Assembly (NCBI GenBank): GCA_003551845.1 | Contig: PUNQ01000056.1 | Coordinates: 1 to 54,069 of the forward strand | DNA from: Candidatus Nealsoniibacteriota bacterium | Lineage (GTDB): Bacteria; Patescibacteriota; Minisyncoccia; Minisyncoccales; PWPS01 | Direction: 5' to 3' | DNA: 54,069 nt | Shown: positions 26,409-50,926 of the stretch, in pieces | Position numbering within the stretch: position 1 is the first letter of the stretch | How the letters are laid out: every line of letters starts with the position of its first letter | Notes under the pieces: model-generated | Databases searched by the model: none | What the model saw: the letters and a program-made list of their open reading frames with translations, nothing else | What the model was told of the DNA's origin: nothing | Translations under genes and position numbers: made by a program

Positions 26409-27572
26409 TTATTCTTTGATGCAGCGAATTGAAACTCCGACCCTATCGGAAAATACAAAATCACCGACAGAAGTATGATCATGAGAGAAATATATTCCCT
26501 TTATTTCTATATCTCCATCTTCACTTTCAGGATCTATTGAGGAGCTCCACCAATGTCCGTGAGTCCCCACTCTATTCAACTTATAGGAAAAGTCAGACCA
26601 ATCAACTCCTTGATACCCGCCCGGTAGAGCTAAAAAATCAATCTCTCCACAAAATTCACTCCCCTCTTCCGTACACCAATCTTCCTGGGGATCTTTTAAT
26701 GCATTACTATACACTTCACCGGAGTCGTCGATTTCGTAACCATTATCAAGAAGCCAGCTTTTTAAATCCTCCCAATCTGAATCGGTTGGTATATACCAGT
26801 CATCCGGACACAGTCCTTGAACCCCTTCTTCAGGAGGATCTCCTTCATAATCCCATGCTACGGCCGCCGGCCATTGATAGAGAACATTGCCGTAATCGTT
26901 AGTTCCATCATTTGCATCAGAGCACATAGTAGGGTCTTCCTCTTCATCCCACCAACCTTCTGGTGACTCCGTACTATCCCCGGTATCAACATAATTTTCA
27001 CATTCATGCCTAAGATCTTCAGCCATCCAACATTGCTCTCCGATCATAACCGTGTCATAAGTTTCTCCGTCCCTACTGTCAACCAAAGCATCTCCACAGG
27101 CAAAATCATTCTCTCTCCTCTCAGTTTCACAAATTCCTACCTCTCTGGTTTCTGCCAGAGGAGCACAAACGGTAACATCATTTATCTCATTTATTGCTAT
27201 TTCATAACCCGTGCTAACCTCATTCTCTCCAACTGCCGGATCAATCGGTATATCATTCATGTAATCAGGGACTAAGGGGGAGAGATCAACTAAATCATTT
27301 TCTGCACAATCTTCAAAATCAAAATGATTCGTATTGCAAATCTCTTTGGGCTCGGAAGGTAAGTCTATATCCGGAAACCCTCCCGCTCGACTGACTCGAT
27401 ATGATAGAAGGCTTTGGTATATTGAACTTGTGTCCGAATCTCGAGCCGAATCTCTCGCTGCAGCAAACTGCCGCCCCGGATTTGTTGCTACAATCACGAT
27501 TGCTGACAATATTGCAATTATTCCTATTGTCATCAAAAATTCAATTAGAGTAAATCCTTTATTTTTATTCAT
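26409..27572 (-). CDS. prepilin-like protein with C-terminal FISUMP (Fibrobacter major paralogous) domain
   Basis: N-term NKGFTLIEFLMTIGIIAILSAIVIV; C-term CGDALVDSRDGETYDTVMIGEQCWMAEDLRH...GLCPDDWYIPTDSDWEDL...WWSSS...VSIRCIKE. Confidence 0.88.
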   Translation of the reverse strand: MNKNKGFTLIEFLMTIGIIAILSAIVIVATNPGRQFAAARDSARDSDTSSIYQSLLSYRVSRAGGFPDIDLPSEPKEICNTNHFDFEDCAENDLVDLSPLVPDYMNDIPIDPAVGENEVSTGYEIAINEINDVTVCAPLAETREVGICETERRENDFACGDALVDSRDGETYDTVMIGEQCWMAEDLRHECENYVDTGDSTESPEGWWDEEEDPTMCSDANDGTNDYGNVLYQWPAAVAWDYEGDPPEEGVQGLCPDDWYIPTDSDWEDLKSWLLDNGYEIDDSGEVYSNALKDPQEDWCTEEGSEFCGEIDFLALPGGYQGVDWSDFSYKLNRVGTHGHWWSSSIDPESEDGDIEIKGIYFSHDHTSVGDFVFSDRVGVSIRCIKE

Positions 27573-27645: not shown

Positions 27646-27691
27646 GAGAGGTCAGGCCTCTCACAAGTTAGAGAGAGGTCAGGCCTCTCTC
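27646..27691. repeat. two tandem copies of a hairpin-forming element GAGAGGTCAGGCCTCTC
   Basis: 27646-27662 and 27673-27689, each GAGAGG-TCAGG-CCTCTC; the second is extended to 27671-27691. Confidence 0.85.
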
Positions 27692-27735: not shown

Positions 27736-27899
27736 ATAAAAACCACCTCCCTTCCGGGAGATGGTCTTTGGTGCACCTCGTCACTCATAAAAAATCTGAG
27801 AATTTTTCAAGTGGGTGCCTCAGCCTCAGCCCACGGGCTAAGGATCATTTGCGGCTCCCTTAAGTGTTGATGTATCAGACTTTATGCTAACGAGGTGCA
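27736..27899 (-). ncRNA. candidate stand-alone structured RNA, 6S-like rod architecture
   Basis: Closing helix 27890-27899/27772-27781 (10 bp), inner helices CATAAA/TTTATG and TCTGA/TCAGA, central bubble, GGGAGCC/GGCACCC, apical CCTTAGCC-CGTG-GGCTGAGG; own promoter and terminator. Confidence 0.7.
27742..27765 (-). terminator. intrinsic terminator of the candidate ncRNA
   Basis: ACCATCTCCC-GGAA-GGGAGGTGGT then TTTTTATA on the minus strand. Confidence 0.85.
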
Positions 27900-27904
27900 A
27901 TCTA

Positions 27905-27934
27905 ATTATATTACTTGTCCGATCGAAGTGTCAA
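27905..27934 (-). promoter_or_regulatory. promoter for the candidate ncRNA
   Basis: Minus strand TTGACA (27929-27934)-N18-TATAAT (27905-27910); predicted +1 near the first base of the closing stem. Confidence 0.75.
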
Positions 27935-27937
27935 CCG

Positions 27938-29011
27938 TCAAGATTTACGCAAAATGTCCGCAAGTTGACCGATGAATGAAACCACTGCCGGCGGTGCCAA
28001 CAGGCTGTAACTTTTTACCCCTTCGTCATCTTCGATAGTCCAAGGAATCTCCTCCGTTTCCACTTTCTCTTTTTTTGCATTCCAACTGTGTACGTATTCC
28101 GGAGTAAGTTCATAGTCGGAAACATAATTTTCAGCTTTGTCCACGGGAATCGCATTTCTAACCAAAACCTTGGGAATTCCGTGAAGCTGAAAGGCTTGTT
28201 TTATTAATTTTTCATCCAAATCGAGTCGCTCCCTGAGCGGCTTTATTCCTTTTTCGTCTCCTTCTTTTCTTACCATCCTCACCTCTTTACAGTCGGGGTT
28301 ATCACAAATCAAATGAAATTCATCATTTTCTTTGTCGTACTCCACTTTGGATGTCGGTAAAAGTTTCAAATTTCTGGAAGTGTTACATTCCGGGCAAATC
28401 CTTCTGTATTTTATCCTTTCGTCTATAATCGTTTCCGGAACGTCAATAAGCGCAAAAATGTCGACATCATCCCTGTAACCGATAAGATCCCTGAAAAAGA
28501 GCGAATAACTGATTTGATCCATATTTCTGGGAAAGCCGTCAATGAAAAGCACCTTTCTGCCTCTTTTGGCAATTTCTCTTTTTATCAGAGTTAAAATTAA
28601 CGGTGTGGGCAAAAGAGATTCGGTGCTTCTTCCTTCCAAGCGGGCGACAATTTCGTCAATCTCAATCCATCCTCTGTAATTTTCTTCCAGAAAATCAATA
28701 AGTTTTTCCCTTTTTTCTTCATCTTTTAACTCCTCATCCACTTCCCTGATCATGTCTCCCACTGAGAAATGCTCCACTTTATCCTTTCCGATCGCATCGG
28801 CAACCATCTTCGAGTAAGTTCCTTTGCCGGCACTCTTTTTACCCAATAGGTAGACTACGAAAGTGTTGTTTTTAAGGAATTCTCGTATATCTTCTATATC
28901 TTTTCCCGACTTGAATTCAAAATACTTTTTTCTTTCTTCAGGGTCGGAAAGATCGAACTTACGATCATCTTTAACTTTTGTTTTGTAAATCGGAAACTCT
29001 ATACCTTTCAT
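27938..29011 (-). CDS. adenylate/nucleoside monophosphate kinase-like protein with zinc-ribbon LID
   Basis: P-loop GKKSAGKGTYSKM, IDGFPRNMDQ, CPECN...CDNPDC. Confidence 0.85.
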   Translation of the reverse strand: MKGIEFPIYKTKVKDDRKFDLSDPEERKKYFEFKSGKDIEDIREFLKNNTFVVYLLGKKSAGKGTYSKMVADAIGKDKVEHFSVGDMIREVDEELKDEEKREKLIDFLEENYRGWIEIDEIVARLEGRSTESLLPTPLILTLIKREIAKRGRKVLFIDGFPRNMDQISYSLFFRDLIGYRDDVDIFALIDVPETIIDERIKYRRICPECNTSRNLKLLPTSKVEYDKENDEFHLICDNPDCKEVRMVRKEGDEKGIKPLRERLDLDEKLIKQAFQLHGIPKVLVRNAIPVDKAENYVSDYELTPEYVHSWNAKKEKVETEEIPWTIEDDEGVKSYSLLAPPAVVSFIGQLADILRKS

Positions 29012-30017: not shown

Positions 30018-31538
30018 TTACTCATTAAATTGAAACCACAATTTGGGATAATCTTGAAGATTATCTATAAACCAAATGGCAGTATCTTCATTTCCGTCAT
30101 GATTACCCTCTTCAACCATGTCCCAATCCACATTATTTGTTGTATAGGTGTCTATATCCTGCATCTCCGCTGTAGTTTTACCCGTTCCCATTTCTGATTG
30201 GGTGGTTTCGGAAGCTTCCGTATCCCAGAAATTGTCTATGTCATCAGTATCACCCTCTTTGCGACCACAAAAACCTCCAATGTTCGATTCTCCAACAGGC
30301 TCCCCGATAGAGTAGGAATTTTCAATAGAGGCGTCCCAAGCAAGTCCTACAAAGCCCCCGACACTGTCATCTCCATCTACATCACCCATAGCGTAAGAAT
30401 TTATAATATGACCATCCGTGTATCCCGCAAGTCCACCAACATTATCTTCTCCACTTACATCAGCTGCAGCATAAGAATTGACGATACTACCACCCTGCAT
30501 CTGCCCTACAATCCCACCCACATCCCGATCTCCACCATCTCCGGTTACGGCTCCTATCATATAAGAGTTATTAATCGTGGCATCACCATTGAAACTATGA
30601 AGGTCTCCCACCAAACCACCCGTGCGAGTTTCTCCATTTACGGTTCCTATCATATAAGAGTTATCAATAGTTCCTCCATACATACCACCTACAAAACTTC
30701 CAATTGCAGACCCTTCACCATTTACCTCACCCGTCATACCGAGATTTTTTATCGTTCCCCCATTGTCCAGCACAGAAAATAATGCTATATACCAAGTTTC
30801 CGTTTCGTGTCCGATATTTATGTTCTGAATTTCATGTCCCGCTCCGTCGAGATCACCTTCAAAAGCAGGAAGAGACCACCAAGAACCACCTATGGGAGTA
30901 AAATAATCATTGTAATGCTCACTCCAATCAATATCGTTGGTTAAGACATAAGAGTCATCCATCTGCCAATCGTCATATTTATCCGTAGGATTGCCTTCAT
31001 CATCTTCACCCGTACCCCAGTTATCACCATCTTCGTGACCGTAACCTATATTTTGCAAGTCGGCAGGGGATGACACCCTCCAAGAGCATGCTCCCAGAAA
31101 TATATCTTTATCTTTCTCCGCATGAAGAACCTCTACACACAGATCTCCGGTTGTGGGGCTTTTCCTTATTTTATAACCGGTTCCATCTTCGCCCGTCCCC
31201 ACTTTCGGGTCAACCGGTATTCTGTCAATATAAGTGGGAACCAATGAAGAAAGATCAACCAAACCTTCACAATCGGGATTTTCCAAATTCGTGTTACATA
31301 TTTCCGTAAGTTCCGAAGGTAAATCAATATCACCCCAGCTTCCTCTGTTTGTCATTCGATAATAATCCAAAGAAGTATATAAGCTCTTTATATGAGAATC
31401 ACGAGCCGTGTTTCTTATAGCGGCAAATCGGCCTCCGGGATTTAGAGTTATGATAACGGCACCGGTTAAAACGGCAATTATCCCGATAACTATGAGAAGT
31501 TCAATAAAAGTGAATCCTTTTTTGTCGTTTGAAAACAT
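30018..31538 (-). CDS. prepilin-like protein with C-terminal GLUG-motif repeats
   Basis: N-term KKGFTFIELLIVIGIIAVLTGAVI; repeats NSYAMGDVDGDDSVGGFVG; C-term FWDTEASETTQSEMGTGKTTAEMQD. Confidence 0.9.
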   Translation of the reverse strand: MFSNDKKGFTFIELLIVIGIIAVLTGAVIITLNPGGRFAAIRNTARDSHIKSLYTSLDYYRMTNRGSWGDIDLPSELTEICNTNLENPDCEGLVDLSSLVPTYIDRIPVDPKVGTGEDGTGYKIRKSPTTGDLCVEVLHAEKDKDIFLGACSWRVSSPADLQNIGYGHEDGDNWGTGEDDEGNPTDKYDDWQMDDSYVLTNDIDWSEHYNDYFTPIGGSWWSLPAFEGDLDGAGHEIQNINIGHETETWYIALFSVLDNGGTIKNLGMTGEVNGEGSAIGSFVGGMYGGTIDNSYMIGTVNGETRTGGLVGDLHSFNGDATINNSYMIGAVTGDGGDRDVGGIVGQMQGGSIVNSYAAADVSGEDNVGGLAGYTDGHIINSYAMGDVDGDDSVGGFVGLAWDASIENSYSIGEPVGESNIGGFCGRKEGDTDDIDNFWDTEASETTQSEMGTGKTTAEMQDIDTYTTNNVDWDMVEEGNHDGNEDTAIWFIDNLQDYPKLWFQFNE

Positions 31539-49243: not shown

Positions 49244-50794
49244 TCAAAGAATTAATTTTTCTTTAATTTCCTCGGTTCCTTCTTGTATTTCTTTTATAAT
49301 TTCTTCAGTTTCTTCTGCAAACATAGGGTTTTTGTATCGAGGAATAGGTCTTTGACCGGCTGATAACTTTGACAGTACTCCGTTTTGAGCCTTTTTCTCT
49401 TCTTCGGGCTCTATTACCCACAATAAAACGGGGTAATCCTCATTGATATATTTTTTTGCCCAAACCGAATCGAAGTCCCATTTGTCATACAGATCTTTCA
49501 AGGGTTCTTCCTCATATTCATAAAAATTTTCAATCTCATCCACAAGCAAACATTCCGTTTCCGTGCCATTTTCCTCTATTTTGCCTACACAATCTTTTTC
49601 ACCGTCTTGTTTGTAAGCGAACGAATTTTTTATAAATTCATTATTCCTACCACCGAAAACTCCGGCATAGTCAATATTTCCCACCACATTTCCGACAGAA
49701 TAAGAGTTCTTTATAACTCCTTCATCAAGATAGCCGACAAAGCCACCCACTTTGTTCCCATCATTATCGACTTCTCCCACATCTCCCGTAGCATATGAGT
49801 TTTTTACGGTTTTGAGATTGTATCCGACAAAGCCACCCGTCGTTCCCTCTTCCGCTTCTTCATCATAATTCCAATTTACATCACCTCCGGAATGAGAATT
49901 CTTTATAATTCCTTCATTAAAACCGACAAAACCACCTACTCCCCAATATCCTCCTTCCACATTTCCCCGGGAATAGGACTCTTCCACGGAAGCAGTCTCA
50001 TTTTCTCCGCTCACATTGTGGCCGATAAGACCTCCGACTTGATCATCCTCGCCTTGAACCTTTCCCTTGGCATAAGATCTTCTTATATCCGATTTTTCAT
50101 TTCTTCCGACAAGGCCTCCGAGGATTTTATTTCCCTCAACATTGCCCGTGGCATATGAATCTTTTATGGTCGCATCTTGATTCCATCCCACCAAGCCTCC
50201 GACAAGATCGTCTCCTTTCACTTCCACTTTTGCACCGGAATCGTTAATTGATCCCTTCCAATTGGTGGCTACAATTCCACCTACGTAATCATCTCCCTCC
50301 ACTATTCCTCCTTCCATATGCACATTTCGGATATTGCCGCTATTGTATCCGACGAGACCGCCGGTCTGCTCACCTCCCGAGATATCAACATTTTTCAATC
50401 TGAGATCAAAAATTTTTCCGCCACTGTCCACTTTGGAAAAGAGGCCGACTCTTTCTCTTGTACTCTCATCAATAGTCAGATTTTTTATCTCGTATCCGTT
50501 ACCATCGAAAATTCCTCCGAATGGACTCTCTTCATTTCCTATCGGTTGAAATTCTAAATTTTTGCAATCGATATCTTTTTTCAAAATATAATTACCATTC
50601 AACAAATAGTTGTCATCAATACCGATAAGTTGCATCTCCTCACAACTTTCAATCATTATTTTTTCTTGTCCCATAACTATTCCATTGGGTTTGGGAGTAA
50701 AAACTGACAAGATTAAAATTATTGTAATGAGAAAAAATTTATGGAAAATATTTTCTTTCCGCACTCCTCTTTTTCTTTTTTTTAACTTAATCAT
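49244..50794 (-). CDS. secreted GLUG-repeat protein
   Basis: Signal-like N-terminus; repeated VGGLVGWNQDATIKDSYATGNVEGN; C-term WDFDSVWAKKYINEDYPVLLWV. Confidence 0.88.
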   Translation of the reverse strand: MIKLKKRKRGVRKENIFHKFFLITIILILSVFTPKPNGIVMGQEKIMIESCEEMQLIGIDDNYLLNGNYILKKDIDCKNLEFQPIGNEESPFGGIFDGNGYEIKNLTIDESTRERVGLFSKVDSGGKIFDLRLKNVDISGGEQTGGLVGYNSGNIRNVHMEGGIVEGDDYVGGIVATNWKGSINDSGAKVEVKGDDLVGGLVGWNQDATIKDSYATGNVEGNKILGGLVGRNEKSDIRRSYAKGKVQGEDDQVGGLIGHNVSGENETASVEESYSRGNVEGGYWGVGGFVGFNEGIIKNSHSGGDVNWNYDEEAEEGTTGGFVGYNLKTVKNSYATGDVGEVDNDGNKVGGFVGYLDEGVIKNSYSVGNVVGNIDYAGVFGGRNNEFIKNSFAYKQDGEKDCVGKIEENGTETECLLVDEIENFYEYEEEPLKDLYDKWDFDSVWAKKYINEDYPVLLWVIEPEEEKKAQNGVLSKLSAGQRPIPRYKNPMFAEETEEIIKEIQEGTEEIKEKLIL

Positions 50795-50810: not shown

Positions 50811-50926
50811 AAAAAACCGACTTAAAAGTCGGAGAGGGTTTTCTTGGTGATCGGTTACGCCACCGGCTCCTCGCAATTCAGGCGTCCAAATAAAACAATT
50901 GCGAATCAAGGCCCCCACCAAACTTT
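50811..50926 (-). ncRNA. candidate structured RNA (three-way-junction-like) with terminator, upstream of the GLUG gene
   Basis: TTGGTG/CACCAA closing stem, TCGCAATT/AATTGCGA hairpin, CGGT-GGCGTA-ACCG hairpin, then CCGACT-TTTA-AGTCGG-TTTTTT terminator; promoter TTGATT-N17-TATAAA at 50932-50960. Confidence 0.6.

Follow-up and report, generated by a model that had tools for sequence, protein, structure and literature searches.

A conserved, covarying RNA gene of a Nealsonbacteria-type CPR bacterium, probably a diverged and shortened 6S RNA

A minus-strand RNA gene in the 54,069-nucleotide stretch of DNA analysed here (the window) is very probably the 6S RNA (ssrS) gene of an ultra-small, Nealsonbacteria-type CPR bacterium, in a diverged and shortened form. 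The gene is conserved, shows covariation, occurs almost always in single copy and carries a promoter sequence of its own; its product is homologous to RNAs of the phylum that the Rfam 6S model (RF00013) recognizes. Judged from the sequence models, its homology to recognized 6S RNAs runs via a chain of models rather than a direct match, and throughout the searched part of the order the RNA lies below the Rfam cut-off. The initial annotation of this locus offered a diverged 6S RNA or a new CPR family. We favour the former because RF00013 and a model built only from the order meet on the same loci.

The RNA gene and its fold

The features of the locus are as follows (all on the minus strand).

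27938–29011 (−), adenylate-kinase-like gene (Pfam ADK), the directly upstream neighbour, outside the RNA
27905–27934 (−), sigma-70 promoter TTGACA-N18-TATAAT, 12/12 consensus, kept in homologues
27772–27899 (−), 6S-like RNA body (rod) with closing stem, central bubble and apical arm, from fold, model match and covariation
27875–27899 (−), 5′ half of the closing stem, UGCACCUCGU ... UCUGA, pairing with 27772–27799; putative pRNA template
27860–27874 (−), 5′ strand of the central bubble, UACAUCAACACUUAA, 15 nt, from the fold; aligns to the RF00013 bubble in relatives
27853–27859 (−), GGGAGCC, 5′ side of the bubble-proximal upstream stem; conserved and in the RF00013 consensus
27824–27843 (−), apical hairpin CCUUAGCC-CGUG-GGCUGAGG, 8 covarying pairs
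27813–27819 (−), GGCACCC, 3′ side of the bubble-proximal upstream stem, from covariation and RF00013 alignment
27800–27812 (−), 3′ strand of the central bubble, ACUUGAAAAAUUC, 13 nt; aligns to CCCACCUggaA of RF00013
27772–27799 (−), 3′ half of the closing stem, from covariation
27738–27765 (−), intrinsic terminator ACCAUCUCCC-GGAA-GGGAGGUGGU-UUUUU, from sequence; hairpin also in the computed fold

The promoter and terminator named in the initial annotation are both present. TTGACA (27934–27929) and TATAAT (27910–27905) are separated by an 18-nt spacer, and no other perfect 12/12 match occurs within 5 kb. Of 69 homologues, 56 match the promoter consensus at 10/12 or better where the promoter is expected (compared with 1.4% of control positions), and 15 match it perfectly (0.04% of control positions). 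The upstream ORF stops at 27938, a few nucleotides ahead of the −35 hexamer, so the RNA has a promoter of its own and need not be the 3′ UTR of the adenylate-kinase-like gene. The terminator was found at 27765–27738, and most homologues have one downstream of the RNA. Stand-alone transcription is supported at the level of these sequence signals.

The expected +1 falls at about 27898–27901. Six nucleotides past the −10 hexamer, UGCACCUCGU (27899–27890) pairs with ACGAGGUGCA (27781–27772). This partner had been described as lying about 120 nt downstream; the pairing stands, and the spacing is corrected to about 118 nt, with a rod of about 128 nt and a transcript of about 162 nt. The remaining proposed elements were all located on the minus strand, including the inner stem UCUGA/UCAGA (27879–27875/27799–27795), the 15/13-nt bubble, the GGGAGCC/GGCACCC stem with its single A-A mismatch and the apical hairpin. 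The rod and terminator together fold at −73.2 kcal/mol, compared with −42.5 ± 4.1 for shuffled sequences (z = −7.55; 0 of 200 shuffles as stable), and covariance models match the RNA body at 123.9–155.4 bits.

Covariation, distribution and gene neighbourhood

We built one covariance model from four congeners (R1) and a second from 67 members of the order (R2). In the model-fitted alignment of the 67 members, which is biased towards the structure, having been fitted to it, 92.8% of cells are standard pairs and 38 of 40 base pairs show double (compensatory) changes; when partners are slid as a control, pairing falls to 37–52%. Compensatory changes occur at 24/24 pairs of helices 1–6. The GGGAGCC/GGCACCC stem is invariant or covarying, with 100% of cells paired, and its variants change in step (GGGAGCC/GGCACCC, GGGAGUC/GACACCC and GGGAAUC/GAUUCCC). 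In the apical hairpin, all 8 pairs have changed on both sides and 98% of cells are paired. A plain MAFFT alignment of 15 members, with double changes at 8 of 17 apical-arm pairs, recovered the apical arm only, and the model-fitted alignment was therefore used for the stems; RNAalifold on the latter returned an identical fold. Covariation in relatives thus favours the exact fold first proposed, and supports a rod with a closing stem, a large central bubble and an apical arm. One member of the family (locus L031, 1440–1500) has a GC-rich hairpin inserted in the 3′ side of the closing stem.

BLASTN retrieved homologues from each of the three congeners, from the greater part of the family and from some members of the order, with the inner part (bubble and apical arm) the most conserved region. 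R1 found the RNA in 109 of 196 genomes of the order. Of the 184 order genomes with a completeness of 90% or more, R2 found it in 156 (85%), with one copy in nearly every case; the family is conserved across the order. Across the phylum, R2 matched 74 of 287 genomes, most outside the order used for building it. Relatives that carry the RNA include Candidatus Nealsonbacteria MAGs from sediments. Two genomes have two R2 matches each (G191, C6:3334–3457 and C8:1830–1966; G096, C5:19127–19246 and C2:9399–9535), possibly 6S paralogues as in B. subtilis or a duplication in the assembly.

The gene for the same adenylate-kinase-like protein lies directly upstream, in the orientation of the RNA, at 51 of 69 homologous loci; this synteny played no part in the homologue search. 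Around the loci that RF00013 detects in other orders no such neighbour was found, and synteny therefore provides no bridge to them.

The surroundings of the gene have features of their own. Between the terminator and a pilin-like gene, the palindrome GAGAGGTCAGGCCTCTC occurs in two copies (27646–27662 and 27673–27689). In two genes (26409–27572 and 30018–31538, −), N-terminal methylation motifs of type IV pilin-like character are combined with a Fib_succ_major domain and with GLUG repeats, and their products are likely to be surface proteins. A c-di-GMP-II riboswitch (50840–50925, −; 58.7 bits, above the Rfam gathering score) lies directly upstream of a 516-amino-acid ORF (49244–50794, −) with GLUG-like repeats. 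A riboswitch of this class seems unusual in a CPR genome.

Relationship to 6S RNA and competing explanations

The comparison with Rfam that the initial annotation suggested identified neither 6S RNA nor any other family in the window RNA. RF00013 did not match the window sequence, even at E ≤ 10; a scan of the RNA region returned chance microRNA-type matches only, and a gathering-level scan of the whole window returned matches only away from the RNA. The tmRNA was detected normally in the same genome, so the failure does not stem from poor assembly. At its gathering cut-off of 46.4 bits, used here as the operational threshold, RF00013 detected 6S RNA in 0 of 196 order genomes (best score, 42.4 bits).

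Below that threshold, every RF00013 match of at least 26 bits in the order genomes falls on a member of the family of the window RNA (L102, 42.4 bits, E = 7.7e-8 per genome; L031, 28.2; L103, 27; L051, 26.3). Weaker matches also coincide with members (L006, 24 bits; L013, 20.3; L010, 16.3). The 18.6-bit match at L104, which R2 does not match, was judged to be chance, and for this reason a match below about 20 bits was not taken as evidence by itself. A cmscan of 20 fetched members matched RF00013 to one only, which makes this model alone a poor detector in the order.

Elsewhere in the phylum, RF00013 matched 24 genomes, four of them above the cut-off. R2, which was built without any of the 20 RF00013 loci fetched from the phylum, re-finds all 20 at the identical place and strand (E-values of 3e-10 to 0.02; four above the cut-off), and the loci linked in this way score up to 55–60 bits with RF00013. 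R2 did not match E. coli ssrS directly. The core common to both models, UAGGGAGCC…GGCACCCACYUGGA, flanks the 13–15-nt bubble, and the two consensus sequences are colinear through the inner closing stem, the U-rich 5′ bubble, UAGGGAGCC, the apical arm and GGCACCCACCUgga. The relatives conserve an ACYUGGA motif in the 3′ bubble strand. These results contradict the earlier statement that no diagnostic 6S sequence was recognizable, as UAGGGAGCC...GGCACCCACYU occurs in the Rfam 6S consensus.

An alternative is that the RNA belongs to a new structured family specific to CPR bacteria, with no kinship to 6S RNA and a rod and bubble that resemble it through convergence. Such a family would account for the lack of an Rfam match in the window RNA, of scores above the 6S cut-off among the 196 order genomes and of an R2 match to E. 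coli ssrS. We consider it improbable: RF00013 and R2, built independently of each other, pick out the same loci (20/20 in the phylum, plus the strong matches in the order), their common sequence occupies corresponding positions in the fold, and a single-copy gene with a strong promoter fits the expectation for 6S RNA. Less probable again is a 6S relative like Ms1, an RNA that is structurally related to 6S RNA and binds core RNA polymerase instead of the sigma holoenzyme (PMC9130861). The structural kinship of Ms1 and its mode of binding speak for such a relative, as does the GG hallmark of the pRNA, mostly absent in the family, but the relatives are recognized by RF00013, the 6S family itself, no cmscan returned a match of Ms1 type, and Ms1 has been described from Actinobacteria.

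The region also contains a Shine–Dalgarno-like AGGGAG followed, at a suitable spacing of 6 nt, by an ATG that opens a frame of 13 codons (MILSPWAEAEAPT and a stop), and close relatives have similar 13-amino-acid peptides. That the locus is a short translated ORF or leader peptide is nevertheless the least credible of the explanations. The ATG is absent in 17 of 69 members, and the frame and its length vary (5 to 80 amino acids) while base pairs are kept by double changes. With neither reading frame, length nor presence conserved across the 69 members, a short ORF is refuted as the general function. We therefore retain a diverged 6S RNA as the identity of the gene.

Proposed function and comparison with known systems

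The bubble strands, at 15 and 13 nt, are about the size of a melted promoter, and a primary-type sigma factor gene is present in the genome. Known 6S RNA imitates an open promoter and occupies the housekeeping holoenzyme, from which it is released by the synthesis of a pRNA from its own bubble (PMC8414754). The rod of the window RNA may likewise mimic an open promoter, with the closing stem standing in for downstream DNA, the GGGAGCC/GGCACCC arm for upstream DNA and the 13–15-nt bubble for the melted region. Binding to RNA polymerase is likely on these grounds. By occupying the primary-sigma holoenzyme, the RNA would reduce transcription from ordinary promoters under nutrient scarcity. We infer that the polymerase could then use the 5′ strand of bubble and stem as the template for a short pRNA, which is predicted to read 5′-AUCAGACUUUAUGC... 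from a putative start opposite U27874, and that the RNA would thereby be released.

The pRNAs of known 6S RNAs have an A next to the start and GG at pRNA position 4/5 or 5/6 (PMC8414754). A27873, which follows U27874, fits the first feature. The window lacks the CC template for the GG, as do 56 of 67 members; it is present in the other 11. A refolding hairpin in the 3′ bubble strand can form in 26 of 67 members (13.5 in shuffles), without enrichment over a swap control (23.4). With the GG mostly absent and the release hairpin not clearly backed, release is less supported than polymerase binding. We tentatively raise a further idea, which we consider doubtful, that 6S RNA in a large CPR order normally takes a minimal form, its apical arm truncated and its pRNA start atypical. 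Such an RNA might dispense with the pRNA-driven refolding typical of 6S RNA and act, for instance, as a longer-lasting brake on the polymerase, in keeping with a host-dependent life.

If the RNA functions as 6S RNA, its occurrence in 85% of the near-complete genomes of the order suggests that reduced genomes keep a global transcription brake. Standard 6S detection by the Rfam threshold yields no 6S RNA in any of the 196 searched order genomes; with the family model, 6S genes can be annotated in a region of the bacterial tree where annotation is poor. Our literature search found no paper that mentions both 6S RNA and ‘candidate phyla radiation’. As a short natural variant, the RNA also offers a test of which parts of 6S RNA are needed.

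Among known systems, Ms1 of Actinobacteria is a 6S-like RNA that binds RNA polymerase (PMC9130861), as the window RNA probably does, but Ms1 binds the core enzyme and we saw no sequence match between the two. The window RNA resembles 6S RNA (RF00013) in being a stand-alone gene with a strong promoter, in a rod made up of a closing stem, a large central bubble and an apical arm, in the core UAGGGAGCC...GGCACCCACYUGGA adjoining the bubble, and in model matches at the same loci. It differs in the length of the rod (about 128 nt, compared with about 183–187), in its apical arm, a single 8-bp hairpin much shorter than that of the 187-position RF00013, and in the sequence at the pRNA start. Its neighbour is an adenylate-kinase-like gene, whereas 6S RNA of E. 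coli lies beside zapA/fau.
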